DNA of 64,000 nucleotides from an uncultured Clostridia bacterium. Lineage in GTDB: Bacteria; Bacillota; Clostridia; Oscillospirales; Acutalibacteraceae. The position numbers and the translations under genes were made by a program. This document shows, piece by piece, positions 6,698-43,971 of the stretch. Below the pieces are notes generated by a model. The model worked only from the letters and a program-made list of their open reading frames with translations. It was not told the origin of the DNA and searched no databases. Position 1 is the first letter of the stretch, and each line of letters begins with the position of its first letter. Where the stretch lies: the NCBI GenBank assembly GCA_945874765.1, contig CAMCHQ010000001.1, positions 186,001 to 250,000 on the forward strand, in the 5' to 3' direction.

Positions 6698-6749
6698 ATT
6701 CCCTCTCTCCTTTTGCAAAAAAATAGTCATATAAAAAAATATTAAAGAT

Positions 6750-6778
6750 ATAATATATTATTTGGCTAATAAAGTCAA
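6750..6778 (-). promoter_or_regulatory. Sigma-A promoter of the ilvB-leuD operon
   Basis: Reverse-strand TTGACT (6773-6778), a 17-base spacer and TATTAT (6750-6755) lie about 50 bases upstream of ilvB. The boxes and spacing match consensus well. It is divergent from the ychF promoter 24 bases away. Confidence 0.8.
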
Positions 6779-6802
6779 GAAATAAAATCATATAATTTAC
6801 AC

Positions 6803-6831
6803 TTGTAAAAAGAATATTTTTGTTATATACT
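6803..6831 (+). promoter_or_regulatory. Sigma-A promoter of ychF
   Basis: TTGTAA (6803-6808), a 17-base spacer and TATACT (6826-6831) precede the ychF ATG by 44 bases. It lies back to back with the ilvB promoter. Confidence 0.75.
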
Positions 6832-6875
6832 TGATAAGAATTAATTTAACACACCAAAACCAAAGGAGAATATAT

Positions 6876-7970: not shown

Positions 7971-7986
7971 TTTATTCAAATATTTA

Positions 7987-8030
7987 ATGCTCGATTTTTG
8001 TCAAACAAAGCAAAATTCGGGCATTTTTTA
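7987..8030 (+). terminator. Terminator of ychF
   Basis: An imperfect hairpin (ATGCTCGATTTTTG paired with CAAAATTCGGGCAT) is followed by TTTTTT, 17 bases after the ychF stop. Confidence 0.75.
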
Positions 8031-8082
8031 TAATATTTAGTCGATTTGTTTAAAAGTTTTCAAGAATTATTTGCATTTTTTG

Positions 8083-8111
8083 TTGACTATTTTCAAATAA
8101 TTTGTTATTAT
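8083..8111 (+). promoter_or_regulatory. Sigma-A promoter of the sigma-H-like gene
   Basis: TTGACT (8083-8088), a 17-base spacer and TATTAT (8106-8111) have the same boxes and spacing as the ilvB promoter and precede the ATG by 23 bases. Confidence 0.75.
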
Positions 8112-8134
8112 TTTATCTAAGGTGGGAGAGAACT

Positions 8135-8728
8135 ATGTCAGAACCCGGCAAAAATAATATAAATGACACAATTCTTTCAAGTGCGCAATCAGGCGAAAGT
8201 AAGCAGACAGAGGCTTTAATAAAGCAGTATCGAAGCGTTGTTGAGGCTATTGCAGGAAAGTACACCAACTCTCCTTTTGAATATGAGGATATCATTCAGG
8301 AGGGTATGATAGGACTTTTAGCGGCAATAAAAACCTTTAATGACAGCAAAGGCGCTCAGTTTAAAACCTATGCTCAAACCTGTATCAATAATTCCATTCA
8401 AACGGCACTTAGGAAGTTTAATCGGCAAAAGGATATTCCTATAGGTGCAGTTATAGAATACGCTGAGGAAGAAATTCCCGAAGAAAACGGAGTTATAAGT
8501 GCAGAGGATTATTACATCGCCGGCGAAAGTGTTTCAATGTTGGCAAATACCCTTAAAGAAAATCTTTCTGAATATGAAAACGAAGTCTTGAGGTTACATA
8601 TTGTCGGTTGCAACTACAGTGAAATAGCGAAAAGATTAAGCAAAACACCTAAATCGGTAGACAATGCACTTCAACGAATCAAGAAGAAATTATCAGCCGT
8701 AAATTTTAAAACCGACAAATATAATTAA
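8135..8728 (+). CDS. RNA polymerase sigma-70 family factor, sigma-H-like
   Basis: The 197-residue protein has sigma region 2 (about 45-105, with YEDIIQEGMIGLLAAIKTF and FKTYAQTCINNSIQTALRKF) and region 4 (about 148-190, ending SVDNALQRIKKKLS). The region 4 ending closely resembles Bacillus SigH (KSIDNALQRVKRKL), and the RQKDIP linker after region 2 is also SigH-like. It may therefore direct early sporulation or competence genes, but ECF-like paralogues in Clostridia share this form, so I give no symbol. The ATG at 8135 follows GGTGGGAG; an in-frame start at 8102 lies within the -10 region and is rejected. A zinc-ribbon gene follows 13 bases downstream. Confidence 0.85.
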   Translation: MSEPGKNNINDTILSSAQSGESKQTEALIKQYRSVVEAIAGKYTNSPFEYEDIIQEGMIGLLAAIKTFNDSKGAQFKTYAQTCINNSIQTALRKFNRQKDIPIGAVIEYAEEEIPEENGVISAEDYYIAGESVSMLANTLKENLSEYENEVLRLHIVGCNYSEIAKRLSKTPKSVDNALQRIKKKLSAVNFKTDKYN

Positions 8729-8741
8729 GAGGTGTAAGAAA

Positions 8742-9014
8742 ATGTACGAGGACAAAACATTAGTTTGCAAAGATTGCGGCAAGGAATTTGTATTTACCGC
8801 CGGCGAACAAGAATTTTATGCAGAAAAAGGCTTTACTAACGAGCCGCAGAGATGTAAGGAATGCCGTGACAAGAGAAAGCACGCACCACGTGAATATCAC
8901 GACGCTGTTTGCGCATCTTGCGGTAAGGCTTGCAAGGTTCCGTTTGCTCCAAGCGGTGACCGCCCTGTTTATTGCAGTGAATGCTTTGCAAAAATGCAGG
9001 AAGAACAAGCATAA
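8742..9014 (+). CDS. Double zinc-ribbon protein
   Basis: This 90-residue protein contains four CxxC pairs arranged as two zinc ribbons: C9-x2-C12 with C38-x2-C41, and then CASCGK with CSEC. The first half (CKDCGKEFVFTAGEQEFYAEKGF...RCKEC) is the probable zinc-ribbon domain seen in many Clostridial proteins next to CxxC-x-CxxC modules. It could bind nucleic acid, but no function is established. AGGTG precedes the ATG, and it shares a transcript with the sigma factor 13 bases upstream, which suggests co-expression. Confidence 0.85.
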   Translation: MYEDKTLVCKDCGKEFVFTAGEQEFYAEKGFTNEPQRCKECRDKRKHAPREYHDAVCASCGKACKVPFAPSGDRPVYCSECFAKMQEEQA

Positions 9015-9036
9015 CAGTCAATTATATTTACATAAG

Positions 9037-9067
9037 CAGAGTCGTTGTTGCGGCTCTGTTTTATTTT
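9037..9067 (+). terminator. Terminator after the zinc-ribbon gene
   Basis: The stem CAGAGTCG/CGGCTCTG with a six-base loop is followed by TTTATTTTT. Confidence 0.8.
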
Positions 9068-9098
9068 TCAAAAAATCAAAACTTTTTGAAAAAAGTTC

Positions 9099-9127
9099 TT
9101 GACATATAGGCTTACATATGGTAATAT
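9099..9127 (+). promoter_or_regulatory. Promoter of tRNA-Ser
   Basis: TTGACA (9099-9104), a 17-base spacer and TAATAT (9122-9127) end 15 bases upstream of the tRNA. Confidence 0.8.
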
Positions 9128-9142
9128 ACATAAGCACCAAAC

Positions 9143-9231
9143 GCAGAGGTATCGAAGTGGTCATAACGAGGCGGTCTTGAAAACCGTTTGTCCGAAAGGG
9201 CGCGTGGGTTCGAATCCCACCCTCTGCGCCA
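9143..9231 (+). tRNA. tRNA-Ser(UGA)
   Basis: The 89-base sequence folds into a class II tRNA. The acceptor stem GCAGAGG pairs with CCTCTGC, the anticodon loop is CTTGAAA giving TGA (9178-9180), a long variable arm follows, and the T-loop is GGGTTCGAATCCC. The encoded 3' end is GCCA with CCA included. The long variable arm together with the UGA anticodon identifies serine. Confidence 0.95.
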
Positions 9232-9233
9232 AG

Positions 9234-9266
9234 AGAACTACACAATTACGTGTAGTTCTTTTTTTA
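9234..9266 (+). terminator. Terminator of tRNA-Ser
   Basis: The perfect stem AGAACTACAC/GTGTAGTTCT is followed by a run of seven to eight T, immediately after the tRNA. Confidence 0.85.
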
Positions 9267-9318
9267 TGCATTTTTCCGACACAAAAAATATCAAAACAGT
9301 ATAAAAAAAATAAATAAC

Positions 9319-9359
9319 AAAAGCACGGTGGTTAGAATCAATCTAACTGCCGTGCTTTT
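9319..9359 (-). terminator. Terminator between tRNA-Ser and ferredoxin, probably bidirectional
   Basis: A long stem, AAAAGCACGG...CCGTGCTTTT with an inner GTTAGA/TCTAAC pair, is flanked by A/T-rich tails on both strands. It lies 19 bases past the ferredoxin stop. Confidence 0.75.
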
Positions 9360-9378
9360 ATTTTAAGTATGTATTAAA

Positions 9379-9549
9379 TTATGCCTGAGCAGGAGCTCCT
9401 ACAGGACAGGTAGCTTCACAAGCGCCGCATTCGATGCAAACATCTGCATCAATTTCGAACTTGCCGTCTCCCTCTGAAATAGCACCAACCGGGCATTCTG
9501 CAGCACAAGCGCCGCAAGAAATGCAATCATCTGAAATAGCGTATGCCAT
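9379..9549 (-). CDS. 2[4Fe-4S] clostridial-type ferredoxin
   Basis: The 56-residue protein is a classical small ferredoxin with two CxxCxxCxxxCP motifs: C9, C12, C15, C19 and C38, C41, C44, C48. Each set supplies three ligands to one cluster and one to the other. It serves as a low-potential electron carrier for enzymes such as pyruvate:ferredoxin oxidoreductase or hydrogenase. AGGAGGTGTT lies upstream of two adjacent ATG codons; the second (9549) gives the better spacing. An in-frame extension of 20 residues upstream is hydrophobic but spurious. Confidence 0.95.
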   Translation of the reverse strand: MAYAISDDCISCGACAAECPVGAISEGDGKFEIDADVCIECGACEATCPVGAPAQA

Positions 9550-9631
9550 CATAACACCTCCTACACCATACTTTATACTTAATATAACAGTAAAGAATAC
9601 AAAAATCAAGTGAATTTCAACAATTCATTTA

Positions 9632-10468
9632 TTAATTTTTGTTCATTTTTGGTTTGTTTTCCCTAACTATCCTTACCTCATCACGGCTGACCGTAACAGG
9701 TAAACCGTCGGGAGTATTATCAAGCTGAACTTTAAGCTGACCGGTTAAAATTGCAGCGTCGACAACAGTTCCCCTGCCGTGCCTGCAATCAACTACAGTA
9801 CCGATTTTCGGAGTGATTTTATGTAAGTATTCATATGAATTTTGCTCATACTTCAAACAGCACATAAGCCTGCCGCAAGTACCGCTGATTTTGCCGGGAG
9901 CAAGAGAAAGACCCTGGTCCTTTGCCATTTTGATAGTAACGGAATGGAAGCCATCAAGAAAAGTTGAACAGCAAAACGGTCTGCCGCAAATACCGAGACC
10001 GCCGAGCATTTTACTCTCGTCCCTGACGCCTATTTGACGAAGCTCGATTCTTGTATGAAGCGTTGCAGCCAAATCCTTAACAAGTTCTCTGAAATCTATT
10101 CTGCCGTCGGCTGTGAAATAGAATATAACCTTTGAACAGTCAAACGAATATTCCGCATTTGTCAAATTCATCTCAAGCTTATGTTTCTCTATTTTTTTAG
10201 AGCAAATTTCAAATGCTTCTTTTTCCTTAATCTTATTTTCCTTAACTTTTTCACGGTCAGCGTCATTGGCAATGCGGATAACCGGCTTTAAAGGGCTGAC
10301 AACCTCATCGTCCTCAACCTCTTTAACACCGCAGGAAGCCTTGCCGAACTCAAGACCGTTTGCGGTTTCGACAATTATTTCCTCACCGTTTTTTATATCA
10401 AGACCCTTTGGGTCAAAATAATATGTTTTGCCTGTGTCGCTGAAGCGAACACCAACAACTTTAGTCAT
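9632..10468 (-). CDS. ricT: PSP1-domain protein RicT (YaaT)
   Basis: The 278-residue protein carries the PSP1 C-terminal domain (about 55-145) and six conserved cysteines at 161, 166, 167, 198, 203 and 204 in GICGRPFCC and GTCGRLMCC. In Bacillus subtilis RicT joins RicA and RicF in the Y-complex, which binds [4Fe-4S] clusters and promotes RNase Y-dependent mRNA maturation and phosphorelay signalling towards sporulation. It lies 12 bases after holB, the same order as holB-yaaT in B. subtilis, which supports the name. The last residues are basic (NKPKMNKN). Confidence 0.92.
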   Translation of the reverse strand: MTKVVGVRFSDTGKTYYFDPKGLDIKNGEEIIVETANGLEFGKASCGVKEVEDDEVVSPLKPVIRIANDADREKVKENKIKEKEAFEICSKKIEKHKLEMNLTNAEYSFDCSKVIFYFTADGRIDFRELVKDLAATLHTRIELRQIGVRDESKMLGGLGICGRPFCCSTFLDGFHSVTIKMAKDQGLSLAPGKISGTCGRLMCCLKYEQNSYEYLHKITPKIGTVVDCRHGRGTVVDAAILTGQLKVQLDNTPDGLPVTVSRDEVRIVRENKPKMNKN

Positions 10469-27962: not shown

Positions 27963-28559
27963 CTACTCGTGCTTTTGCTCGCACCATTTTATAAATGCTG
28001 ATTTCATTACCTTAAAGTTCTTGCCAATTCTAATGCTTGGAAAGTCTTTTCTATGAAATAGTTGCCTTGCACTTACCAATGAACAATTCATCATTTCTGA
28101 CACATCCTTTGGTGTGAGAAAGACAATTTCTTCATCATTAGTAGTGATTTCGGCTTTATTATTAAATTCCTGAATCATAAAATTTCCTTTCTGCCCGGCT
28201 GGTATCTCAACCAACCGGGACTTTTTAGTTTTCGTTACATTCCACCCATTACAGGACCCCCAACCTTGATTATCATCTTCGTAATCATAATTATCCTCAT
28301 CGTAATCAACTGAACTGCTTTTGCTTTCTTCAATGAGCTTTGCAAGCTCGTCCATACCATAAGTAATAGCATCGGCATTTTGCTTTGCTCTGCGTTGGCG
28401 TTCTCTTAATTCCGGATCATCGGATTCTTCATCTATGATGTCAGCTGATGGAATATCCAAGCCACTGATATTAGATTGCTGATGACTTGAATCACTAACA
28501 TTATCACTGATGCTTTGATCATAGATTCCTTTGGACTTTTTAATTTTGTCTTTTCGCAT
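27963..28559 (-). CDS. Acidic protein with C-terminal helix-turn-helix (excisionase-type)
   Basis: The 198-residue reading frame has a disordered, acidic middle (SSSVDYDEDNYDYEDDNQGWG, about 84-104) and a C-terminal MerR/excisionase-like helix-turn-helix (about 147-195: FLTPKDVSEMMNCSLVSARQLFHRKDFPSIRIGKNF). Such small proteins accompany mobilisation genes in Clostridial elements and may control excision or transfer. The first 40 residues overlap, in another frame, the end of the broken relaxase, and no ribosome-binding site precedes the ATG at 28559, so the true start is uncertain. Confidence 0.5.
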   Translation of the reverse strand: MRKDKIKKSKGIYDQSISDNVSDSSHQQSNISGLDIPSADIIDEESDDPELRERQRRAKQNADAITYGMDELAKLIEESKSSSVDYDEDNYDYEDDNQGWGSCNGWNVTKTKKSRLVEIPAGQKGNFMIQEFNNKAEITTNDEEIVFLTPKDVSEMMNCSLVSARQLFHRKDFPSIRIGKNFKVMKSAFIKWCEQKHE

Positions 28560-28921
28560 GGAGGAAGAATATTAACTCCGTACTTCAAACAAATTTCATC
28601 ACTGATTGCTCTTAACTCTTTAAGTGTATTAGGTCCTTGCCTTAATCGTTTGCCTGTTTCCAAATCAATTCCGTTGATAACAAAATGATTGTGCAGGTGG
28701 TCCTTATCCAAGTGCGTTGCTACAATTACCTCATTGTTCTTCCACGCTCTTTCTGCAAACTCAATTCCTATTTGATGAACAAGATCACGAGTAACATTAT
28801 CGTTTGGAGAGAAGGATTGATAGTAATGATAAAAATATCTGTCCTTTTGTCCGTTGCGATTGTTGGAAGGATATGCTTTCTTTGTTAACATAAATTCACT
28901 GTATGGATCAACAGCAGTAGC
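28433..28921 (-). pseudogene. MobA/relaxase remnant (N-terminus deleted, frame-shifted C-terminus)
   Basis: The frame encodes the middle of a mobilisation relaxase: a segment PYSEFMLTKKAYP, the fold region YHYYQSFSPNDNVT, and the metal-binding histidine motif HLDKDHLHNHFVIN, then GKRLRQGPNTLKEL. It matches MobA/VirD2-type relaxases, which nick the origin of transfer. The first roughly 45 residues with the catalytic tyrosine region are missing, and the end runs out after about 160 residues, where the family usually has several hundred. The frame continues directly, with only a TAG between them, from the Rep-like gene upstream, so a deletion has joined them. It is not functional by itself. Confidence 0.75.
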
Positions 28922-30513: not shown

Positions 30514-31314
30514 CTATGTTTCCCAGCTAATGCAATTGAGCACACCACCGTCTTTGGCGATTTCGTTGATGTTGACCGGGATGATTGTTTTATTAAAAAT
30601 GTTTTTTGCTGTTTCAACAGTTTCGCTATCCATATCAACGCCGAACACCGGCAGAAATATAGCCTGTTCGGTTTCCAAAAAGTTGAGATAACAACCCACA
30701 GCACTGTCACCCTTTGAATCAAGATACGAAAAATCAATAACCTCAATTCCGTGATTTCGCAGAGCTACTTTAATATGAGCTTCAAGTCCAAACAGGTAAC
30801 AGGAAGCATTTCCAATAACGGTGTTCTCATCAACAAAACGCACCATACCGTCGGCGTGACCTGTCATATCGGAACTAAGCGAGGGAATAATAATCACCCT
30901 TGCCTCAAGCAACTGTTCTAATTCCTGAACCAGTTCGGCAGAAGAATAATTCCAGTTTTCCATAAAAATCCTGTCGCTGATGACAGCCGTTTTACGTGAG
31001 GGAGAAAAAACGATATTTCCGCCGTCAAGGTTGATATCTGAATAAACAAGGTTTTCAAGTGAAAGCGACGGAGCAATTTTCTTGCGAAAATCGGTACGCA
31101 GTTCAGGGTAATCATTAAGATAACTCGGCTCATATCGAAACGATATATATTTACCTGACTTTGTTTTCACCGGCATAAAATCCCGCAGCCAGATATCACG
31201 GGTGTTTTCAATCAACTTATACGGAACACCGTGAGCAGTGAGAGCGGCAAACAGTCTTTCTGTTGCAGGCTTGTATTTATCGTTTGTTTTTAGCAGAGAT
31301 GAAAAATAAATCAT
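30514..31314 (-). CDS. Agmatine deiminase / peptidyl-arginine deiminase-like protein
   Basis: The 266-residue protein belongs to the guanidino-group-modifying (pentein) superfamily. Residues visible are W42-x-x-D45 (DIWLRDFMP), D97 with GGN (NLDGGN), H153 and D155 (GHADGM), and a C-terminal cysteine C261 in GGVLNCISW. Bacterial agmatine deiminases convert agmatine to N-carbamoylputrescine, but they are usually near 350-370 residues, so this shorter protein may have another substrate. Its ATG overlaps the stop of the preceding gene by four bases (ATGA), so it is coupled to the glycosylase-like gene. Confidence 0.75.
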   Translation of the reverse strand: MIYFSSLLKTNDKYKPATERLFAALTAHGVPYKLIENTRDIWLRDFMPVKTKSGKYISFRYEPSYLNDYPELRTDFRKKIAPSLSLENLVYSDINLDGGNIVFSPSRKTAVISDRIFMENWNYSSAELVQELEQLLEARVIIIPSLSSDMTGHADGMVRFVDENTVIGNASCYLFGLEAHIKVALRNHGIEVIDFSYLDSKGDSAVGCYLNFLETEQAIFLPVFGVDMDSETVETAKNIFNKTIIPVNINEIAKDGGVLNCISWET

Positions 31315-31904
31315 TGTTGTTTACCGAAGACATTTTTATATTCCGTTAAGCGTGTGTCAGCATCCACACTTCTCAGTGCAGTAGGTGACGGAGAGTATAA
31401 AACTATTACATTGTAAGTTTTTCCATTTATTACAACGCTTCCGATTTTATTTGGGATTTTCCAACTATGATACGATTTATCCGCTACCTGATTCATTTGT
31501 CTAATAATAAATCTGCTTGTATAAATAAGGGTATCAACTTTATGGCTTTTCAAAAGCAATTCTTCGATTGGCTTGAGTGTTATTATTTCAAGTGATGCAT
31601 CGTCTGATTTTCCGTCTTTGTGGATGCATTTTTCAACAATATCAGTTATGCCTATATTAAGATTTGTCAGTAAGGCTTTGCGTTGATTTATTGCCGATTC
31701 CGTATTTTTTCTTTCAAACTGTGTGTCGGTAGCCTGTGCAAGCATATCCCAAAAATAATTATCTTTGGAGCCGTAATAAAAGTTTACATCATTGTCAAAC
31801 AACTTTTGCGGATTAATACAAAATCTATACGGTGGTATAGTTCCAATGATAAGCTTTGTTGCGTTTTGCGGAATAAAAGGTTCAAATGGGTGAATTGAAT
31901 ACAT
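31311..31904 (-). CDS. Uracil-DNA glycosylase-like superfamily protein
   Basis: The 197-residue protein has features of the uracil-DNA glycosylase fold: LIIGTIPPYRF (near 18-28), NDVNFYYGSKDNYFWDML (38-55), and LYSPSPTAL near the C-terminus that occupies the position of the HPSP motif. Such proteins excise deaminated bases from DNA, but the family also includes inactive relatives. The ATG at 31904 follows AAAGGAGAAA; an in-frame start at 31937 has none. It is paired with the deiminase-like gene, and both are island cargo. Pairing of a guanidine deiminase-like protein with a base-excision-like protein is uncommon. Confidence 0.65.
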   Translation of the reverse strand: MYSIHPFEPFIPQNATKLIIGTIPPYRFCINPQKLFDNDVNFYYGSKDNYFWDMLAQATDTQFERKNTESAINQRKALLTNLNIGITDIVEKCIHKDGKSDDASLEIITLKPIEELLLKSHKVDTLIYTSRFIIRQMNQVADKSYHSWKIPNKIGSVVINGKTYNVIVLYSPSPTALRSVDADTRLTEYKNVFGKQQ

Positions 31905-31984
31905 ATGAATTTCTCCTTTAATGTTTTTTTCAATCATTATAGCACTACTTTTATTAAAACCCTAATTAAATAAATTTATTTAAT

Positions 31985-33224: not shown

Positions 33225-33440
33225 TTATCTAAGTGCACTCCATTTTTCCCAACATCTGCAATAACTGCTTGCCTGAACAGGCGAACAGTTAAACCATCCA
33301 CTCTCGTGACTGTAGCATGCACCTGTTTGCATTGAATTGTCAAGCTCGACATAATCGCCGTACTGCTTGAGTTCACGAGTTCCGCCCCAGTGCTTACAGG
33401 TTGCACATACTGCTGACATTGAATTATACTGCTGAGACAT
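33225..33440 (-). CDS. Small Cys-rich protein with CxxCxxW motif (71 aa)
   Basis: The 71-residue protein has a CATCKHW motif (12-18), further cysteines at the centre and end (CYSHES, FNCSP, CRCW) and ends in WEKWSALR. This layout resembles small metal-binding proteins of Firmicutes, but no function is known. The ATG at 33440 follows AAAGGAGGTG. It ends 36 bases short of the hairpin element and starts 37 bases after the stop of the PolC-derived gene. Confidence 0.65.
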   Translation of the reverse strand: MSQQYNSMSAVCATCKHWGGTRELKQYGDYVELDNSMQTGACYSHESGWFNCSPVQASSYCRCWEKWSALR

Positions 33441-33477: not shown

Positions 33478-34563
33478 TCACTCCTTTTCAAGCTCATTTT
33501 GATAAACCGATGCAAATTCTTTTGGATAATTGATTTTATACCACATTACCGTGCACATTACCTCCATGTGACTGATGCAACAGGAGGTTGACTGTAAATT
33601 AGCAACAACATTGAAGTAATCCTTTAGTTCCTGAGAAGCTCTGTATTTATCTAAAATACAGAAATACTCCTCACGATTTTCTTTTCGACTCCAAATACCG
33701 TCCTTTACAATATAATATGCAATATCGTTTGGCATTCCGTACGATAGCAATGCTTCGTAAAATTCATCACGCAAGGTATAAAAATTAGGATTATATAAAT
33801 CTTCAATTTTTCTTTCACGAAAAAATGATGCGTGAATATATCCATAAATTCGAACCAAAGTGTAAAAGTCGTACGAGGTAATGCAGTTTAATTCTTTTAC
33901 AAAGGACTCGCCCAGTCTCTCTTGATAACATTCGGCGAGGTCCTTTATAATAGGAAGATACACTTCATTGTTGAATTGGTTTATTTCCGGTAACTCACCG
34001 GTTAGCTTTGCTAATTTTCCGATATTATCACAAGCTTTATCCGTTTCTAAGTAAATGCCGAATGACAACTTCTCCGACTCTTCAATAAGCTGAAATTTTT
34101 CATTTAGTCGTTGTATGAGCAAAGGACGAACCGATTGAGCAATTGATATTGTTAAATTAGGTCTTCGACAATACGGCAAGGAAGTCCAAACTATATCGGT
34201 ATACACAAAAGACTCATCCTTTTTTGATTTTTTCTCACCTAACACTGTTAAAGGATTAAAAGAAATGATTCCGAGTAAAAAGGCAATTAACGAGCTTGAA
34301 AGGTCTCCGCTAGCCATAATCGGATAACCTTCCTCGTGTGAAAAATCTGCAATTTCTTTCAGAAGAATGAACTTGAATGCGATTCTTCTTTGTTTAATTA
34401 CCGCAAGCTCTAATTCAAGCCTAAAAACAGCAGCGGGAGAATCAATGTAAATATCTCTTATTCTCTCATAACATAATTCTGTAATTTGTTTTTCTATTTC
34501 ATCTATACTCTCTTGTGTCGGCACTTTATATTCCAAATTCAAAGCTGTAATCTTAAATTCCAT
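33478..34563 (-). CDS. PolC-derived protein, catalytic aspartates lost
   Basis: The 361-residue protein is related to the catalytic core of Gram-positive DNA polymerase PolC but is only a fragment of its length. Residues 44-104 follow the PolC order: RLELEL..., then FILLKEIADFSHEEGYPIM, MASGDLSSS in place of GSRGSVGSS, and LGIISFNPL. Residues 126-150 match the segment before and at the palm motif, but PDIDLNF is replaced by PNLTISI (135-141), so the metal-binding aspartates are gone. Residues 229-300 match TFAELVRISGLSHGT...CRDDIMxYL, and 318-354 match the PHAAAYxxxAxxxAYFKxHxPxxFxAAYF end (SHMEVMCTVMWYKINYPKEFASVY). It is a catalytically dead, standalone homologue. Its island context suggests a role in defence or replication takeover, which is inferred. 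Confidence 0.75.
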   Translation of the reverse strand: MEFKITALNLEYKVPTQESIDEIEKQITELCYERIRDIYIDSPAAVFRLELELAVIKQRRIAFKFILLKEIADFSHEEGYPIMASGDLSSSLIAFLLGIISFNPLTVLGEKKSKKDESFVYTDIVWTSLPYCRRPNLTISIAQSVRPLLIQRLNEKFQLIEESEKLSFGIYLETDKACDNIGKLAKLTGELPEINQFNNEVYLPIIKDLAECYQERLGESFVKELNCITSYDFYTLVRIYGYIHASFFRERKIEDLYNPNFYTLRDEFYEALLSYGMPNDIAYYIVKDGIWSRKENREEYFCILDKYRASQELKDYFNVVANLQSTSCCISHMEVMCTVMWYKINYPKEFASVYQNELEKE

Positions 34564-34654
34564 AAATAATACCCTTTTCGTCGCTTTTATGTTTTTGGAA
34601 CATTATAGCACATATTTTTCTTTGACCGTGTAGAAATCGGGTATAGATACATAA

Positions 34655-34686
34655 AAGCGGTAAAGAGAAAATTCTCTTTACCGCTT
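34655..34686 (-). terminator. Terminator overlapping the end of the InsA-like gene
   Basis: The perfect stem AAGCGGTAAAGAGAA/TTCTCTTTACCGCTT is followed by TTATG on the reverse strand. It includes the last codons and stop of the gene at 34678. Confidence 0.7.
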
Positions 34687-35664: not shown

Positions 35665-35689
35665 ATAATTTGCCTTATGAGAAAGTCGG
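35665..35689 (+). repeat. hsdS inverted repeat IR1, silent copy
   Basis: The 25 bases ATAATTTGCCTTATGAGAAA... are exactly repeated in inverse orientation at 39907-39931. This is the junction before the first target-recognition cassette, where inversion would exchange cassettes. Confidence 0.85.
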
Positions 35690-37067
35690 CAAAAACGAGC
35701 CGGTTTGCATTGCGGACGAGGTGCCGTTTGATATTCCTGACAGTTGGGAATGGGTAAGGCTCAAAAATTGTTGTATAGATATTTTTAGCGGTAAATCTCC
35801 CAAATACATAAAAAGTGAAACCGCTTTTCACATCATAGGACAAGCTGCTAATCAAAATACTGGTCTAGATTTTTCTCAATGCAAATATACTGATGATGAT
35901 TTTTGGAACAGTATGGATGAAAAATACTTCCTTAGAAAATACGATGTTTTGTTGAATACGCTCGGGAATGGTACTCTTGGACGTTCTGGAATTGTTACCG
36001 ATTTACCGTATCCTACATTAACAGATGGGCATTTATTTATATTTCGAACCAACGAAGAAGTTGTAGGTTGGTATTTGTATCTGTATCTACAACATAGAAA
36101 GCCGGAAATAGAAAAATCTGCAAATGGTTCAACAAACCAAACATTTTTGAATCTCACTAAAACAATGGAATGGCTTGTTCCGCTGCCTTCAAAAGATGAA
36201 CAAATTCGTATTGTTGAAAAATATAAATCCCTGACACCTATATTAGAAGCGTATTCAAGAGCCTATAACAATTGTATTCGCCTAAACGATACATTCCCAG
36301 AACTTTTGAAAAAATCAATTCTTCAAGAAGCTGTCCAAGGCAAACTTGTTCCGCAAGATCCAAATGATGAGCCTGCAAGCGTTTTGCTTGAACGAATTCG
36401 TGCCGAAAAACAAAGGCTTATAAAAGAAGGAAAAATCAAAAAAGATAAGAATGAATCTATCATATTCAGAAGGGATAATTCTCATTATGAAAAGCGAGGC
36501 TCAGAAGAGGTCTGCATTGATGAGGAACTACCTTTCGATATACCATCTTCTTGGGAGTGGTGTAGAGTCGGCTCTCTTTTTCAAGTTAATCCCCGCAATG
36601 ACATAAGTGATGATACAGATGTTGGTTTTATTCCGATGGCACTTATAAAAGATGGGTTTAGAAATGAACACACTTTTGAAGAGCGAAAATGGAAAAATAT
36701 TAAATCAGGATTCACTCATTTTGCAAATGGTGATATAGTTGTAGCAAAAATAACACCATGTTTTCAAAATAGAAAATCAGCAATTATTTCACAGCTTCCA
36801 AGTGGTATTGGTGCAGGAACAACAGAATTACATGTGCTTAGAGATGTCACTTCGATGTTATTTATGCCGTATTTCCTATTGATTTGTAAAACAAATGACT
36901 TCATTGAAAATGGAGTTAAAAATTTTAGTGGAACGGCTGGTCAACAGCGTATCGGTAAGGACTATATATCTAACTATTTAGTCCCAATTCCACCTATAAA
37001 TGAGCAAGTGCGCATTGTGGATACTGTAATGAAAGCATTCTCAAACATAGATGATTTATATGATTGA
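35670..37067 (+). CDS. Silent HsdS specificity cassettes (two target-recognition domains, no start)
   Basis: The 465-residue reading frame lacks the N-terminal module and its initiation region, since the only apparent start is an internal TTG. It encodes a first target-recognition domain (about 25-200: FDIPDSWEWVRL... to PLPSKDEQIRIVEKY), the central conserved region (ILQEAVQGKLVPQDPNDEP..., about 217-273) and a second target-recognition domain (about 285-465). It runs opposite to the active hsdS at 38529. The conserved region is identical to the active gene over 149 bases, so the cassettes can be exchanged by inversion. It is silent in this orientation. Confidence 0.85.
   Translation: MPYEKVGKNEPVCIADEVPFDIPDSWEWVRLKNCCIDIFSGKSPKYIKSETAFHIIGQAANQNTGLDFSQCKYTDDDFWNSMDEKYFLRKYDVLLNTLGNGTLGRSGIVTDLPYPTLTDGHLFIFRTNEEVVGWYLYLYLQHRKPEIEKSANGSTNQTFLNLTKTMEWLVPLPSKDEQIRIVEKYKSLTPILEAYSRAYNNCIRLNDTFPELLKKSILQEAVQGKLVPQDPNDEPASVLLERIRAEKQRLIKEGKIKKDKNESIIFRRDNSHYEKRGSEEVCIDEELPFDIPSSWEWCRVGSLFQVNPRNDISDDTDVGFIPMALIKDGFRNEHTFEERKWKNIKSGFTHFANGDIVVAKITPCFQNRKSAIISQLPSGIGAGTTELHVLRDVTSMLFMPYFLLICKTNDFIENGVKNFSGTAGQQRIGKDYISNYLVPIPPINEQVRIVDTVMKAFSNIDDLYD
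36342..36490 (+). repeat. hsdS inverted repeat IR2 (149 bp), silent copy
   Basis: The 149 bases from AAACTTGTTCC to CTCATTATGA match 39088-39236 exactly on the opposite strand. They encode the conserved central region between two target-recognition domains. Confidence 0.9.
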
Positions 37068-37636
37068 GTTCTCATTATGAGAAGTTGGACGGAATCGAGC
37101 GCTGTATAGACGATGAGATACCTTTTGAGATTCCAGAAAACTGGGTGTGGTGCAGATTAAGCACAGTTGGAACTACACAAACCGGAAACACTCCGTCAAA
37201 AGCACATCCGGAATATATCGGTGATGATATTCCCTTTATTACTCCGGGAGATATTCAAAGTGGCAATGTTTTCTACGATAATCAAGCTCTGTCTGCTGAA
37301 GGGAAAACGGTTGCTCGTTTATGCTCTAAAGGTTCAATACTTCAGGTCTGTATCGGCGGTTCTATTGGAAAAGTAGCTGTAATCGATCGGGATGTTTGCT
37401 TTAATCAGCAAATTAATGCAATTTCACCGATAATTGTTTGCAGTGAATATATCTATGTAATCATGCAATCGCCATATTTCATTACAAATATGAAAGAGCA
37501 AGCGGGAGGAACTGCAACGCCAATAATAAATCGAGGATTGTGGGATTCGTTGCTTATCCCTATTGCTCCACTTTCAGAACAACACCGTATTGTTGAAAAG
37601 CACCGAGAATTACTTGATAAAATAACACTGATTTAG
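37064..37636 (+). CDS. Silent third HsdS target-recognition cassette
   Basis: The 190-residue frame starts within the palindrome TTCTCATTATGAGAA, directly after the stop of the preceding silent cassette. It encodes one target-recognition domain from SHYEKLDGIERCIDDEIPFEIPENW to PLSEQHRIVEKHRELLDKI. It has no start signal and no N-terminal module, so it is a stored cassette. Its first 33 bases are an inverted copy of 39067-39099 in the active gene, which would let it replace the second domain. The sequence after the shared start differs from both other second domains, so it would give a third specificity. Confidence 0.82.
   Translation: MSSHYEKLDGIERCIDDEIPFEIPENWVWCRLSTVGTTQTGNTPSKAHPEYIGDDIPFITPGDIQSGNVFYDNQALSAEGKTVARLCSKGSILQVCIGGSIGKVAVIDRDVCFNQQINAISPIIVCSEYIYVIMQSPYFITNMKEQAGGTATPIINRGLWDSLLIPIAPLSEQHRIVEKHRELLDKITLI
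37069..37101 (+). repeat. hsdS inverted repeat IR3 (33 bp), silent copy
   Basis: TTCTCATTATGAGAAGTTGG... matches 39067-39099 exactly in inverse orientation. The core TTCTCATTATGAGAA is itself palindromic and is the likely recombination site. Confidence 0.85.
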
Positions 37637-37677
37637 CATAGAATTGTATAATATCTGGCGAAAGGAGGTCTTTCGCT

Positions 37678-38487
37678 ATGATAGAAAAAGAAAAATTTGA
37701 AAGACACTTGAGAGCATCAAATCTCTCAGAAAACACTATTTCTTCGTATCTGTTTGCATTAAAACAATACAGCGATCAGTACGGAGAAATCACCAAAGGT
37801 GACTTACGTGATTACAAGGTTTGGCTTATTGAATCATATAAGCCAAAAACAGTTAATTTGCGATTACGAGCAATTAATTGTTACCTTGAATTCATAGGTA
37901 AGGACAAATGGAAAATGCCTTTTGTTCGCGTTCAGCAGAAAGCATTTCTTGAAAATGTAATAAGTGAAGCTGATTATAAATACTTCAAGAAATGTTTGAA
38001 AAAAGATAATGAATTGTATTGGTATTTCGTTATACGATTTCTTGCAGCAACAGGTGCAAGAGTCAGTGAACTGATTCAAATTAAGGTTGAACATGTAAAA
38101 ATGGGATATCTTGATTTGTATTCAAAAGGAGGAAAGCTTAGACGTATTTACATACCAAAAGCTCTTCAAAAAGAAGCTCTTTCTTGGCTTGATGAAAAAG
38201 GACAAGAAAGCGGTTTTATATTTACAAACAAATACGGTGAAAGAATAACAACAAGGGGAATCTCCGGTCAGTTGAAAAAATTGGCAATTAGATATGGAAT
38301 AAATCCTGCAGTTGTTTATCCTCACTCTTTTAGACATCGCTTTGCAAAAAGTTTTTTAGATCGTTGCAACGATATTGCATTTTTGGCTGATTTAATGGGT
38401 CACGAAAGCATAGAAACAACAAGAATATATTTAAGGAAAACAGCAACTGAACAGCAAAGCATAGTAGATAAAATTGTAGATTGGTAA
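37678..38487 (+). CDS. Tyrosine recombinase of the hsdS inversion locus
   Basis: The 269-residue enzyme has an N-terminal SAM-like core-binding domain (about 1-85) and a catalytic domain with R128 (TGARVSELI), H216 and R219 (HSFRHRFAKSF), H242 (LMGHESIETT) and Y251 (RIYLRKT). It is compact, as are the invertases in other multi-cassette type I hsdS loci, and lies between silent and active cassettes. AAAGGAGG precedes the ATG. It probably inverts the segments bounded by the repeats IR1-IR3, and is distinct from the island integrase at 44283. Confidence 0.9.
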   Translation: MIEKEKFERHLRASNLSENTISSYLFALKQYSDQYGEITKGDLRDYKVWLIESYKPKTVNLRLRAINCYLEFIGKDKWKMPFVRVQQKAFLENVISEADYKYFKKCLKKDNELYWYFVIRFLAATGARVSELIQIKVEHVKMGYLDLYSKGGKLRRIYIPKALQKEALSWLDEKGQESGFIFTNKYGERITTRGISGQLKKLAIRYGINPAVVYPHSFRHRFAKSFLDRCNDIAFLADLMGHESIETTRIYLRKTATEQQSIVDKIVDW

Positions 38488-38491
38488 AAGA

Positions 38492-38525
38492 AAGGCATAC
38501 ACCTCTGATGTGAAGTGTATGCCTT
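38492..38525. terminator. Hairpin between recombinase and hsdS
   Basis: AAGGCATACAC/GTGTATGCCTT with a 12-base loop lies between the convergent genes. The reverse strand continues with TCTTTTACC, so it best serves hsdS. Confidence 0.55.
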
Positions 38526-38528
38526 AAA

Positions 38529-40118
38529 TCATGATATTCTATCGCAATAAGGGAGCAGTTCTTCTATTGCTTCTACAATTTTATTTTGTTCTATTATAGG
38601 TGGTAATGGGAATAACAACTGATGTATTGCATTTGATGATAAACCTTGTATTCCTATTCCTTTTCCTCCTATCAATCCAGTGTGTTTATAAAGGTAAAAA
38701 ACATAATAAAAAAACTTAGTATTGATATCAATGTAAGAACGCAATCTATGAATATGATTTTGTATTCTTATAGGAAAATCATAATTCCAAATTGCAGCCC
38801 TACCGATATCTCCGCCTTCACATACAAGCAAATCACCTTTCATTACTGTACATTTTTCTATTTCTGTATCAGTAAACAGCATTTCTTTTAGCTTTTCAAG
38901 CTCAAATCTGTCCCAATACAAATTTGAAGTTGTGATATAAGTTAGTTTTCTACCAGATGTGTTAGAGGAGTTTAATGCTTTGCCTGTATTGTGTTGGAAT
39001 AATTCTCCTAGACGTACCCAACACCAATTATCCGGTATTTCAAAAGGTATTTCGTCGTCGATACAACGCTCGATTCCGTCCAACTTCTCATAATGAGAAT
39101 TATCCCTTCTGAATATGATAGATTCATTCTTATCTTTTTTGATTTTTCCTTCTTTTATAAGCCTTTGTTTTTCGGCACGAATTCGTTCAAGCAAAACGCT
39201 TGCAGGCTCATCATTTGGATCTTGCGGAACAAGTTTTCCTTGTACTGCTTCCTGCAGAATTGATTTTTTTAAAAGATCTGGAAAGCTATTATTTAGCGCT
39301 AAAATTTCTTCTTCAAGCTTACTGTATTCACTTGCCTTTGGTAGTAAAATTGATAATTGCTCAATTATTCGTCCCATCTCTGCGTAGGGAGGCAAAGGTA
39401 TGGGAAGATTCATCAATTTTTCTCTTGAAAGATTATAGAACGCCTGTCCTGATTTGTGTGTAATATTTCTGCAGTTGTCTCGGTGGTACTTGGCAGCGAA
39501 AGCAAACAATAAATATTTTGAAATAATATCATCATAAAAAAACGGTATCAACATTAGCACAAATCCGCCAACAACTACATCTTCGTAATTCTTTGTTATT
39601 AGCGCAACCTTTCCAATATGTTCCAAACTACTAACAGCTGGGGTAATCATATAATTCTTCTTTAAAAGCAATTCTGGCTTAACATATTCATTGGAAATAA
39701 ATACATCGTCATTTTTGAAGCTATAAGATTCATCTCCTATATTGCCGCCTCTCAATACTCGAATCATTTTGTCTGCTTTTTTTGAAAGCAATTCTTTTTT
39801 ATACGACAAACCAGACATATTTGAGAATAACTCTCCAACTCTACACCATTCCCATGTATCAGGTATTTCAAACGGCGCTAAATCTGAAATACAATTGACC
39901 TCGTTCCCGACTTTCTCATAAGGCAAATTATCGGCACCACGGAATATTACAGAAGGATTCTTTTCTTTCTTGATTTTACCAGCTTTTATCAAGGCTTCCT
40001 TTTCTGCTCTGATGCGTTCCAAAAGAACAGAAGCAGGTTCATCATTCGGGTCCTGAGGAACAAGTTTGCCCTGAACAGCCATTTGTAATATTGAATTTTT
40101 AAGCTGTTGTCCGGTCAT
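38529..40118 (-). CDS. hsdS: HsdS, active type I specificity subunit
   Basis: The 529-residue protein determines the DNA sequence recognised by the type I restriction complex. It has an N-terminal conserved module (about 1-62: ILQMAVQGKLVPQDPNDEP...), a first target-recognition domain (about 78-255), a central conserved module (about 283-345) and a second domain (about 360-529). The two modules are repeats of each other, as usual in HsdS. It starts two bases after hsdM. Three sites in it are inverted copies of silent-cassette sequence: 39907-39931 before the first domain, 39088-39236 in the central module and 39067-39099 before the second domain. The specificity is therefore switchable. Confidence 0.92.
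   Translation of the reverse strand: MTGQQLKNSILQMAVQGKLVPQDPNDEPASVLLERIRAEKEALIKAGKIKKEKNPSVIFRGADNLPYEKVGNEVNCISDLAPFEIPDTWEWCRVGELFSNMSGLSYKKELLSKKADKMIRVLRGGNIGDESYSFKNDDVFISNEYVKPELLLKKNYMITPAVSSLEHIGKVALITKNYEDVVVGGFVLMLIPFFYDDIISKYLLFAFAAKYHRDNCRNITHKSGQAFYNLSREKLMNLPIPLPPYAEMGRIIEQLSILLPKASEYSKLEEEILALNNSFPDLLKKSILQEAVQGKLVPQDPNDEPASVLLERIRAEKQRLIKEGKIKKDKNESIIFRRDNSHYEKLDGIERCIDDEIPFEIPDNWCWVRLGELFQHNTGKALNSSNTSGRKLTYITTSNLYWDRFELEKLKEMLFTDTEIEKCTVMKGDLLVCEGGDIGRAAIWNYDFPIRIQNHIHRLRSYIDINTKFFYYVFYLYKHTGLIGGKGIGIQGLSSNAIHQLLFPLPPIIEQNKIVEAIEELLPYCDRIS
39067..39099 (-). repeat. hsdS inverted repeat IR3, active copy
   Basis: The counterpart of 37069-37101 with full 33-base identity in inverse orientation, at the start of the second target-recognition domain. 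Confidence 0.85.
39088..39236 (-). repeat. hsdS inverted repeat IR2, active copy
   Basis: The counterpart of 36342-36490 with 149-base identity, encoding the central conserved module. It overlaps IR3 by 12 bases. Confidence 0.9.
39907..39931 (-). repeat. hsdS inverted repeat IR1, active copy
   Basis: The counterpart of 35665-35689, 25 identical bases, at the start of the first target-recognition domain. Confidence 0.85.
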
Positions 40119-40120
40119 TG

Positions 40121-41605
40121 TTATTCCTCCGTAATATCAATTCCTAAAATATCAGTAATCTGTGCAAGGATACGGTCAATATCTGCGTTCAAACTTGCTC
40201 TTTTCTCTTGATACTGCTGAATGAGTTCCTTTGGAGGAAGTATCTCTTCCTCTTCGTGAGGATAACTGCAAAGGTCTATATTGTAATTTTTCTCTGCAAT
40301 TTCTTCAACAGTATATTTCTTTGATTTATCAAAGCCTTCAACAGTAATTTCCTCACGATTATTCCACCAGTCCATAGCAGGTGCAAAGTGCTTAAGTTCC
40401 ATTGGTTTTGTCTTTGAGAAGTTTTTATATCCTTCAGGCATATCAAGACGATAGAACCATGTTTCTGTTGTAGGACCTGTTCTGTCAAAGAAAAGAATAT
40501 TTGTTGTGATAGATGTATAAGGGGCAAACACGCTATGTGGCATACGAATAACAGTGTGTAAATTAAACTCCGAAAATAGTTTCTTTTTTATTGCAACCTT
40601 TGCATTATCTGTACCGAATAGGAATCCATCAGGCAAAATAACTGCTGCTCGGCCGTTTTTCTTTAAACGATACATAATTACCGACATAAATAAATCGGCA
40701 GTTTCACTGCTTGCGAGGTCGGATGGAAAATGATTTTTAACATCGTTCTTTTCGCTTCCACCATACGGAGGATTCATGAGTATAACATCAAATTGATCGT
40801 CCTCTGTATAATCAAGAACATCATGCAGAAGAGAATTACCATGATAAATTGTTGGAACATCAATACCGTGAAGCAGCATATTAGTAATGCAAAGCATATA
40901 TGGAAACTGCTTTTTTTCTATACCATAAATCGAGTTGTCGTATTTCTCTTGGTCGGCAGTTGTTACCACTTTTGGAGATAATTCTTTGAGCCAGCTTGTT
41001 AAAAATCCGCCTGTTCCGCAAGCGAAATCCGCACACTTTTCTCCAATTTGAGGATTAATCATTTTAGCCATAAAGTCTGTTACGGCACGCGGAGTATAGA
41101 ATTCACCTGAAGAACCAGCACTTTGGAGTTCTTTTAATATGTTTTCATATATTTCTCCAAAGGCGTGAATCTCATCATAATCGCTCAAATCGAGTTCATC
41201 AATAACATTAATAACCTGACGGAGTAAAACACCGTCTTTCATATAGTTATTTGCATCTTCGAATGTAGTTCTAACGATAGACTTCTTTATGGGAGTTTCT
41301 TTATTTACCTCTATTTTCTTAAGACTCGGAAACAGTGTGTTGTTTACAAAATCCAAAAGAGTATCGCCTGTCATAGCATTTCCGGAACGGTCGTCAATCG
41401 CCCAATTACGCCAACGACAATTTTCAGGAATAATAGATTTATATGTTTCATCATCAAATTCCCAATCATTTTCTTTTGCATCATAAACTTTTAAGAACAA
41501 CATCCAAGCCATTTGTTCAATACGCTGTGCATCACCGTTAATACCTGCATCATTGCGCATAATATCTCTTATTCTTTTTACAAAATTAGATATACTCATA
41601 TTCAT
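40121..41605 (-). CDS. hsdM: HsdM, type I DNA methyltransferase subunit
   Basis: The 494-residue N6-adenine methyltransferase has motif I FACGTGG (194-200), which binds S-adenosylmethionine, and motif IV NPPYGG (278-283), the catalytic NPPY. The N-terminal helical domain (about 1-150, IRDIMRNDAGINGDAQRIEQMAWMLFL) contacts HsdS. With HsdS it methylates the recognised sequence, and with HsdR it forms the restriction complex. It overlaps hsdR by one base (TAATG) and is two bases from hsdS. Confidence 0.95.
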   Translation of the reverse strand: MNMSISNFVKRIRDIMRNDAGINGDAQRIEQMAWMLFLKVYDAKENDWEFDDETYKSIIPENCRWRNWAIDDRSGNAMTGDTLLDFVNNTLFPSLKKIEVNKETPIKKSIVRTTFEDANNYMKDGVLLRQVINVIDELDLSDYDEIHAFGEIYENILKELQSAGSSGEFYTPRAVTDFMAKMINPQIGEKCADFACGTGGFLTSWLKELSPKVVTTADQEKYDNSIYGIEKKQFPYMLCITNMLLHGIDVPTIYHGNSLLHDVLDYTEDDQFDVILMNPPYGGSEKNDVKNHFPSDLASSETADLFMSVIMYRLKKNGRAAVILPDGFLFGTDNAKVAIKKKLFSEFNLHTVIRMPHSVFAPYTSITTNILFFDRTGPTTETWFYRLDMPEGYKNFSKTKPMELKHFAPAMDWWNNREEITVEGFDKSKKYTVEEIAEKNYNIDLCSYPHEEEEILPPKELIQQYQEKRASLNADIDRILAQITDILGIDITEE

Positions 41606-43971
41606 TAACCCACCTTATACAGCTCTTCTTCTAATTCTTTTACAGCTTTTATATAGCCTTCTTTTCCACCAAAATAAGAAGCAATTTTTGATGGTTTACC
41701 GTATTTCTTAAAATCATCCAATTTAAGAATTTCGGTTTTCTCAATTTCGTAAACGCCTGTGTTCATATACTTTTCCAAAAGTGTTTCAAGAATCTCACGT
41801 GCAACACCGCTATACTTGCTTAAGAAATCACGCTTTTTAACATTGTTAGCACGCTCACGGCGAGTTAATGGTTTTTTATCATAAGCAACATGGCAGATGA
41901 AATCAAAGTCATCTACATCGCTCATGTTTTGCTCGGCTTTCATTTGCTCTAAATCAATACCTTGTTCTTTTAGTAATTCTTTAATCGCCTCTTTCTTTTC
42001 TTCGACCGTCCATTGATGAATAAAATTATCCAAAGAAGCATAATGACCTAAAATATTTGATTTTGTGTAATCAACAATGCTTTCTTGACGGAGCAATTTA
42101 CCATTTGCATCATATACAGAAACTGTTTTTCCAAGTATATGAACATTACAGCCTTTTTCATCAACAATATACTTATCGGGTTTGTCAACGATTGGCGGAG
42201 TTGTTCCGCCTCCTCCGTTATCATCGTTATTTCCAGACTTTTTTTGTCCATTAGGATCATATCCGTCAACCTGTTCAATAGGACCATCCCATTCGGGATC
42301 GGAGAACAGTCTTGTAACATTACGGAAATCCATAACAACAAAATGAGTTTTATTTTCTTTTTCTCTTAGTCTTGTACCACGACCAATAATTTGCTTAAAC
42401 TCTGTCATTGAACTTATCATTTCATCAAGAACAATAAGTTTAGTCATCTTACAGTCTGCTCCTGTTGAAAGCAGTTTAGATGTCGTAGCAATAACAGGAT
42501 AAGGTGAAGAAACCGATATGAAATAATCAAGCTTACTCTTGCCGTAGGTATCAGAACCTGTTATTCGAACAACATAGTCGGGATTTTTCTTAACCATATC
42601 AGCATTGAGATTATTCAGAGCAATTCTCATTCGTTCCGCATGGTCTTCAGTTGCACAAAATACTATGGTTTTCTGCATTCTATCTGTGTTTTTTAGATAG
42701 TCGGTTATTTCCTTTGCTACTTCATAAGTACGATCTTCAAGAACTATGTTGTAGTCAAAATCACTGTTTGTATAAATTCTATCTTCTATTTCATAACCGT
42801 TTTTATCAAGCTGACCTTTGAACGGTCGCCAGCCTTCTCCAATATTTGTTTTTACATTAATAACCTTAAACGGTGCAAGGAAACCATCTTCAATGCCTTC
42901 GCGGAGACTATATGTATAAATGGGTTCACCAAAATAATCAATATTTGAAATATATTTTGTTTCTTTGGGAGTAGCAGTCATTCCTATTTGAGTTGCAGAA
43001 GAAAAATACTCAAGGATTTTACGCCAATTACTATCTTTTTTCGCGGAGCCCCTATGACATTCGTCAACAATAATCAAATCAAAAAAGTCTTTATTGAAGA
43101 GCTTTGCAAAACGCTCAACTGCATCTTCATCCGAATTGTTATCATCGTCATCATCACTACTATTACCTGTTAACTGTTGATATAATGAAAAATAAACTTC
43201 GTGGGATGTAATAGTAACGGGATCATCTTTTGCAAAATTGATTTTATGAATTGTTTTTTCAAGAGGAGAAAAATCTTGCTGAATTGTCTGATCAACAAGT
43301 ATGTTTCTATCTGCCAAATACAGTACTTTCTTTTTTAAGCCACTTTTTAATAAACGATAAACTATCTGAAAGGCAGTATAGGTTTTGCCTGTTCCGGTAG
43401 CCATAACAAGCAACAATCTATTTTGACCGTTTGCAATAGCCTCAACTGTTCGGTTAATTGCGTTACGTTGATAATATCTTGGATCGTATGTATTTTGGCT
43501 TGTGTAATATGGCTGATTTATTACTTTTTTCTGTGTTTCAGTTATTCCTTGTGCTTCCCATCTTGATGTGAGCTCGTCAATCGTTGGAAACTCATCCATA
43601 GAAAGGGTGCGTTCCTGCCCAGTGATAAAATCGTGTTCTTGAAATCCATCACCGTTTGAACTGTATGCAAAAGGCACATCAAGCATTTGAGCATAAGTCA
43701 TTGCTTGTTGCAAACCATAAGATATTGAATGGTTGTTATCCTTGGCTTCAACAATTGCTATAGGTTTATTTTTATTGAGGTATAAAACATAATCTGCCTT
43801 TTTAGGGTTCTCTCTTGCAACAAGATTACCTTTAATATTTATTCTACCATCGGTAATCTTTGTTTCCATGGTTATATGGTCAAGTCCCCATTTATCTTGA
43901 ATAGCAGGGGTGATATATTGGATTTTTATATCTTCTTCACTCATTTGCTTTTTACTTAGAACAGCAGCCAT
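41605..43971 (-). CDS. hsdR: HsdR, type I restriction endonuclease subunit
   Basis: The 788-residue protein has an N-terminal nuclease domain with D60 (KKADYVLY), E75 and K77 (IVEAKD) forming a PD-(D/E)xK-type site, then the helicase motor with ATGTGKT (191-197) and DECH (303-306), GMTATP and a C-terminal domain of about 200 residues. An acidic run (SSDDDDDNNSDEDA, about 271-284) is inserted between motifs I and II. It translocates DNA and cuts unmethylated sequence at a distance. hsdR is the first gene of hsdR-hsdM-hsdS and is read from a good promoter. Confidence 0.95.
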   Translation of the reverse strand: MAAVLSKKQMSEEDIKIQYITPAIQDKWGLDHITMETKITDGRINIKGNLVARENPKKADYVLYLNKNKPIAIVEAKDNNHSISYGLQQAMTYAQMLDVPFAYSSNGDGFQEHDFITGQERTLSMDEFPTIDELTSRWEAQGITETQKKVINQPYYTSQNTYDPRYYQRNAINRTVEAIANGQNRLLLVMATGTGKTYTAFQIVYRLLKSGLKKKVLYLADRNILVDQTIQQDFSPLEKTIHKINFAKDDPVTITSHEVYFSLYQQLTGNSSDDDDDNNSDEDAVERFAKLFNKDFFDLIIVDECHRGSAKKDSNWRKILEYFSSATQIGMTATPKETKYISNIDYFGEPIYTYSLREGIEDGFLAPFKVINVKTNIGEGWRPFKGQLDKNGYEIEDRIYTNSDFDYNIVLEDRTYEVAKEITDYLKNTDRMQKTIVFCATEDHAERMRIALNNLNADMVKKNPDYVVRITGSDTYGKSKLDYFISVSSPYPVIATTSKLLSTGADCKMTKLIVLDEMISSMTEFKQIIGRGTRLREKENKTHFVVMDFRNVTRLFSDPEWDGPIEQVDGYDPNGQKKSGNNDDNGGGGTTPPIVDKPDKYIVDEKGCNVHILGKTVSVYDANGKLLRQESIVDYTKSNILGHYASLDNFIHQWTVEEKKEAIKELLKEQGIDLEQMKAEQNMSDVDDFDFICHVAYDKKPLTRRERANNVKKRDFLSKYSGVAREILETLLEKYMNTGVYEIEKTEILKLDDFKKYGKPSKIASYFGGKEGYIKAVKELEEELYKVG

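Follow-up and report, generated by a model that had tools for sequence, protein, structure and literature searches.

How does the core of a replicative DNA polymerase come to be kept as an intact gene once its catalytic residues have gone, and what might it be used for? This question is raised by a 361-residue protein encoded in the window, i.e. the whole 64,000-nucleotide stretch of Clostridia DNA analysed here. The gene, its altered motifs and the other features on which the argument draws are:

33478..34563, minus strand: gene for a PHP-less PolC palm-and-fingers core of 361 aa, predicted to be catalytically dead
34291..34317, minus strand: residues 83-91, MASGDLSSS, replacing the PolC triphosphate loop GSRGSVGSS (from the alignment)
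34141..34161, minus strand: residues 135-141, PNLTISI, replacing the palm strand PDIDLNF (D1 to N, D2 to T)
33568..33594, minus strand: residues 324-332, QSTSCCISH, replacing the finger motif FPKAHAAAY
34602..34607, minus strand: -10 hexamer TATAAT with TGC in front of it (extended -10), taken from the sequence itself and absent from the promoter-scan list
34655..34686, minus strand: terminator-like hairpin of 14 pairs between the dead PolC gene and the upstream transposase-like ORF
33225..33440, minus strand: 71-aa Cys-rich ORF with AAAGGAGG
38529-43971: type I restriction genes, confirmed; specificity-like ORFs start from 35670
L109:8004-9419, in genome G373: HTH_3 fused to a predicted dead PolC core; further copies in L118-L122

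The fold search matched the window protein to C-family polymerases, giving it a C-family palm-and-fingers fold in line with the PolC ancestry proposed in the first-pass annotation (in a second look at these matches, VIA-align, the order is Foldseek's own ranking). Pfam finds DNA_pol3_alpha alone, with no HTH, and NCBIfam finds polymerase models across residues 8-106 and one chance match, nothing else; PHP, exonuclease and OB domains, already reported as missing at the first pass, are absent from the protein in both searches. The protein shares the palm/fingers fold and its order with PolC, the Gram-positive replicative DNA polymerase III alpha (PF07733, PF17657; PDB 3F2B/3F2C, 9QPC), but besides these domains it lacks about 125 palm residues, the catalytic aspartates, the GS loop and FPKAH. 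The alignment bears out the replacements of GSRGSVGSS and PDIDLNF described earlier, and the three catalytic aspartate positions (the PDIDLNF pair and KLDxLGHD) are taken by N, T and Y. Among the 161 near-invariant PolC columns, i.e. those identical in 17 or 18 of 18 PolC, 31 are kept, 42 fall in gaps and 88 are changed. By its sequence, the core of the window protein is dead.

Eight relatives, 21-42% identical to the window protein, make up with it a core family of nine, all of them intact frames of 338-390 aa with ends much alike and 14 invariant columns. None of the nine keeps all three catalytic aspartates, compared with 18 of 18 PolC (the genome's own included) and three of three DnaE controls; the control set is without L072, which keeps the triad and groups with DnaE, and L073, which keeps it in a 985-aa frame. 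The residues found are N/D/C/M/F/I/N/R/V at D1, T/S/D/E/T/T/T/E/T at D2 and Y/E/F/N/N/D/D/G/D at D3, so that the loss differs among members, since L106 (genome G927) retains D1, L003 D2 and three members D3. KRTTGQHPGG is gone in the nine. Two cysteines, Cys31 and Cys329 (window numbering, alignment A4), are invariant throughout these divergent members, and Cys329, which sits at the PolC FPKAH site, is preceded by Trp in seven of them, by Gln in the window protein and by Phe in L069. The nine form one clade (support 100/99, and 100/100 for the seven left after removal of four long rows), in a tree whose program flagged long branches. Net charge does not set the family apart from PolC. As far as sequences can tell, this is a stand-alone, PolC-derived family without catalytic residues, conserved as intact frames. 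The relatives found are stand-alone genes, not pieces of intact polC genes, and the first-pass description of a full-length frame without catalytic aspartates is confirmed. The window gene as a pseudogene or polC fragment was rejected, given its intact frame, its eight intact relatives and the separate PolC of the same genome (G000:C6, a 1282-aa frame that keeps the triad).

The presence of the core family is patchy, like that of accessory genes. A search of 300 family genomes gave 87 with a match at 1e-6, and besides the window's own the stand-alone ones were those of G270 (39%) and G227 (24%); the remaining matches listed lay inside frames of at least 677 aa. Eighty genus genomes added G710, G674, G716 and G665 (five of 80 with the window's own), 398 family genomes, partly the same as the earlier 300, added G785, and 391 class genomes added G927. 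No further core member was found in 394 order genomes at 1e-9, the window's own was the sole one in 129 phylum genomes at 1e-16, and G927 was the sole one in 16 genomes of its family. Single-sequence scans of genome contigs and viral contigs gave no relative, and the A1 scan gave none in viral contigs and only two already known in genome contigs. Nine plasmid and ten phage records matched the window protein, all within residues 4-106; seven of the nine plasmid matches are annotated as PolC or DnaE, the other two being hypothetical or without a gene, and the ten phage records carry no annotation.

The surroundings of the window gene are a mosaic that includes a PAD_porph (agmatine-deiminase-like) gene, Sel1 repeats and DUF6809. 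The ATG of the Cys-rich ORF lies 37 bp past the end of the dead PolC gene, with which it is perhaps co-transcribed; a family search with its longer 96-aa reading was without match. A 152-aa MobA/VirD2 relaxase fragment at 28433-28891, beside an HTH_17-like protein (below cut-off), is the remnant of a mobilisable element, and direct repeats bounding an integrated element, sought over 27000-47500, were not convincingly found. An FRG-domain protein at 45520-46530 matches the candidate defence family PDC-S15 (3e-82). Across 35670-40118, two plus-strand specificity-like ORFs face a minus-strand type I specificity gene, with a recombinase-like ORF (37678-38487) between these genes, whose translations share long stretches; this is perhaps an invertible, phase-variable hsdS locus.

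Part of the core family is linked to WYL genes. One lies within 1.2 kb in four of the nine members: in G674, G665 and G927 it is the next gene downstream, and in G227 it lies upstream, separated by two genes. Each of the nine genomes has from 0 to 5 PF13280 genes, and with random placement of the gene 0.066 cases within 2.5 kb would be expected; the resulting P(≥4) of 2.4e-7 is nominal, because the link was noticed before it was tested. A wider test over 18 genomes (6 within 2.5 kb against 0.137 expected, P 2e-9) is not leaned on here, since it mixes dead and intact paralogues and omits five genomes whose loci were also fetched. The window copy has no WYL gene, HTH fusion or phosphatase beside it, and the sole PF13280 match of its genome is at C1:32542, about 187 kb away. 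Four of the five WYL-less copies have a contig end no more than 2 kb away; on the far side of the gene, the contigs of G270, G785 and G710 run for about 4-14 kb without WYL.

The link extends to some of the longer PolC-like forms of about 700-800 aa with a PHP region (L110, L103, L104, L111), among which L110 has none of the three aspartates, L103 lacks D1, and L104 and L111 have all three. In L103, a gap-free row (5470-10459) consists of a GmrSD type IV restriction gene (5470-7206), the PolC-like gene (7207-9393) and a WYL gene (9395-10459). A PolC-like gene with the motifs PDIELNI and LYKLNILSHD is followed by a WYL gene one base apart in L156, and the row in L111 runs PolC-like, marginal PDDEXK_4, WYL, PDDEXK_4. 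The protein at L156:984-2147, considered as a relative of the PDDEXK_4 protein of L111, found no support in Pfam or BLASTP. One strand of L104 (9225-18001) carries in turn WYL, an NT5C nucleotidase, an unknown protein, a relative of the calcineurin-like phosphatase of L077, another unknown, a wHTH protein, an MBL-RMMBL nuclease, a further unknown and the PHP-PolC-like gene with intact triad. Since L111 and L104 have WYL in the row and keep all three aspartates, inactivity is not needed for the WYL link, which may be older than the inactivation.

Short degenerate forms, with open frames of 362-495 aa, occur in L105, L101, L102, L107 and L034/L109. In L105 (3-3463), two full PolC-like genes flank an AIG1/LeoBC-like GTPase gene, and a third, partial one stands at the contig end; in L101 (3721-10227), two TIR genes, of which one is ThsB-like, lie upstream of the dead PolC-like gene, as does a tubulin/FtsZ-like gene (an assignment below the Pfam cut-off). 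The form in L034/L109 has an HTH_3 domain (3.8e-14) fused to a core without D1 and D3, and resembles a one-component regulator derived from a dead polymerase. Counting the query's own, full-length copies of this fusion occur in six of the 146 genomes searched in G373's family and are 60-100% identical; D1 is lost in all six and D2 kept in four, and a seventh, divergent copy (35-39%) was seen in G1218. Of 15 pairs, 12 have a finite dS; in these, dN/dS of the fused core is 0.077-0.168, and in 10 of the 12 it is below that of the protein's own HTH part. The ratios are rough, because dS often comes close to 1 or exceeds it. They are evidence of selection on the dead core in this cousin, as distinct from the window's clade. 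In AU tests of whether the fusion and the stand-alone clade go back to one inactivation, p was 0.25-0.46, and a single origin for all the short degenerate forms was neither established nor rejected.

In a comparison with PADLOC, the 65 neighbours of the nine core members matched 120 families at 1e-10, and the 25 of these that were listed include five WYL proteins and three type I specificity proteins, which presumably correspond to the window's three specificity-like ORFs from 35670 onwards. Fifty-nine control proteins from elsewhere in five of the nine genomes matched 21 families, with one member each and no WYL, some of them under the names GmrSD-like (HEC-06, Orf5, SspE), mads, AriA, mREase_IV and DndA/SspA. 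Among the families listed there is an excess of WYL proteins over the controls, although 5 of 65 against 0 of 59 is not an independent test, as it draws on the same loci as the WYL link. The window protein and L106 themselves matched 0 families of PADLOC-DB 2.0.0 at 1e-3. L077 also carries a BnzB-like gene. A single uracil-glycosylase-like family formed by neighbours in L064, L077, L102 and L104 and by window 31311-31937 was considered but is not claimed: only those of L064 and L104 match mutually (4e-16), the one in L102 matches UDG weakly (0.065), and L077 and the window ORF have no match.

Our best explanation, held tentatively when taken as a whole, is that the dead core most likely serves as a binding module feeding a transcription regulator. 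The sequences show that a PolC copy shed PHP, exonuclease and OB as well as most of the catalytic palm to become a stand-alone palm-and-fingers protein without catalytic residues, and that Clostridia retain it as an accessory gene. What is left of the cleft may bind nucleic acid, a nucleotide or a partner protein and signal this to a regulator, either the neighbouring WYL protein or, in the cousin, the HTH_3 domain of the same chain; disturbances of replication or of nucleotide pools would thereby reach stress or anti-phage genes. In the case of the window copy, such a regulator would need to act in trans, with the only WYL gene found in the genome at the distance given above. We infer, in short, a binding or sensing module for WYL and HTH regulators. 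According to the available text of the respective papers, WYL domains are ligand- or nucleotide-sensing (PMC10693628), the WYL protein PafBC is triggered by single-stranded DNA (PMC11804915) and about half of BrxR-type regulators are located with defence systems (PMC9122601). A polymerase remnant with nucleic acid or nucleotides bound to it would suit a role of this kind. A more specific version, in which the core, its catalytic centre lost, is now a sensor domain for transcription and immunity that stands beside WYL or is fused to HTH_3, reads replication intermediates or nucleotides, possibly those of a phage, and switches stress or defence genes, is rather doubtful; its context is the PHP-bearing paralogues in rows with WYL and GmrSD or PD-(D/E)XK genes.

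The first-pass annotation had suggested a new use for the dead core, which is probably right, and had named a decoy or an interactor of replication as examples; on the genomic evidence, a partner of transcription regulators is the likelier role. A decoy or inhibitor would compete with PolC for template, primer or a replisome partner and slow host or phage replication, and the palm and fingers fold, the location in an accessory region that also encodes type I restriction and an FRG protein, and the GmrSD gene adjoining a PHP paralogue would all suit it. The near-invariant PolC motifs GSRGSVGSS, KRTTGQHPGG and FPKAH are, however, lost or deleted, the OB domain and C-terminal part are missing, and no QL[S/D]LF clamp motif, as given in the available text of PMC3919608, is readable in the window protein, so that we consider this role unlikely. 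Next in our ranking, and unlikely too, comes an enzyme subunit that pairs with a phosphatase, MBL or PD-(D/E)XK nuclease of the locus and guides it to nucleic acid in the manner of ImuB/DnaE2. A calcineurin-like phosphatase gene is directly upstream in L077 (4.4e-12), DSPc-like genes are upstream in L079 (directly) and in L064 and L102 (one gene away), and PDDEXK_4 and MBL-RMMBL genes stand in the L111 and L104 rows; yet the would-be partners vary by locus, none adjoins the window copy, and the three DSPc matches are below the Pfam cut-off. ImuB goes with ImuA and DnaE2, and we know of no WYL or HTH link for it or for other inactive Y-family polymerases.

An active enzyme in which other residues have taken over catalysis, e.g. 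around the two invariant cysteines, one of them at the FPKAH site, is improbable: the palm has no conserved acidic pair or triad and, to our knowledge, cysteine is not a usual catalytic residue of polymerases. Fast evolution with long branches and 21-42% identity, together with presence in only five of 80 genus genomes, is what a decaying, functionless polC fragment would show, but decay is made very improbable by nine intact frames that have similar ends and share 14 invariant columns, by the purifying selection seen in the HTH fusion of the cousin and by the gene's own promoter-like site.

Three other families, B, X and Y, already have paralogues that lack polymerase activity. Inactive Y-family polymerases such as ImuB, as described in the available text of PMC6511836 and PMC12926913, are dead polymerases kept as non-catalytic partners and perhaps work alike, although ImuB belongs to the Y family and the window protein to the C family. 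PolB2, a predicted inactivated archaeal B-family member, and noncanonical PolX are likewise paralogues with altered active sites or no polymerase activity; in the accessible parts of the sources (PMC8764526, PMC9226535), PolB2 is a reported translesion extender and noncanonical PolX are exonucleases, both of other families, whereas in the window protein the catalytic segment is deleted. BrxR, CapW and PafBC share the WYL domain with the genes beside four of the nine core members, but the consulted sections of PMC9122601, PMC9122588 and PMC11804915 name no polymerase-derived partner for them. As far as the available text of two large C-family surveys goes, PMC3919608 dropped sequences without an intact active site, and PMC12926913 discarded strongly diverged or truncated ones before phylogeny and names inactive members for the Y family and none for the C family; a dead C-family part would have been set aside by such exclusions. 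Our literature search, in which subscription journals were thinly covered, found no report of inactive C-family paralogues.

A conserved PolC core without PHP and catalytic aspartates, together with the WYL link and the HTH fusion under selection in a cousin, suggests that evolution can put the core of a replicative polymerase to a non-catalytic use, probably in regulation. Some gut Clostridia carry such a dead, cut-down PolC besides the working enzyme, intact in several lineages and often beside a gene-control protein, which suggests a reuse beyond DNA copying. For these bacteria, the dead PolC core offers a concrete handle on what some of their WYL and HTH regulators sense.
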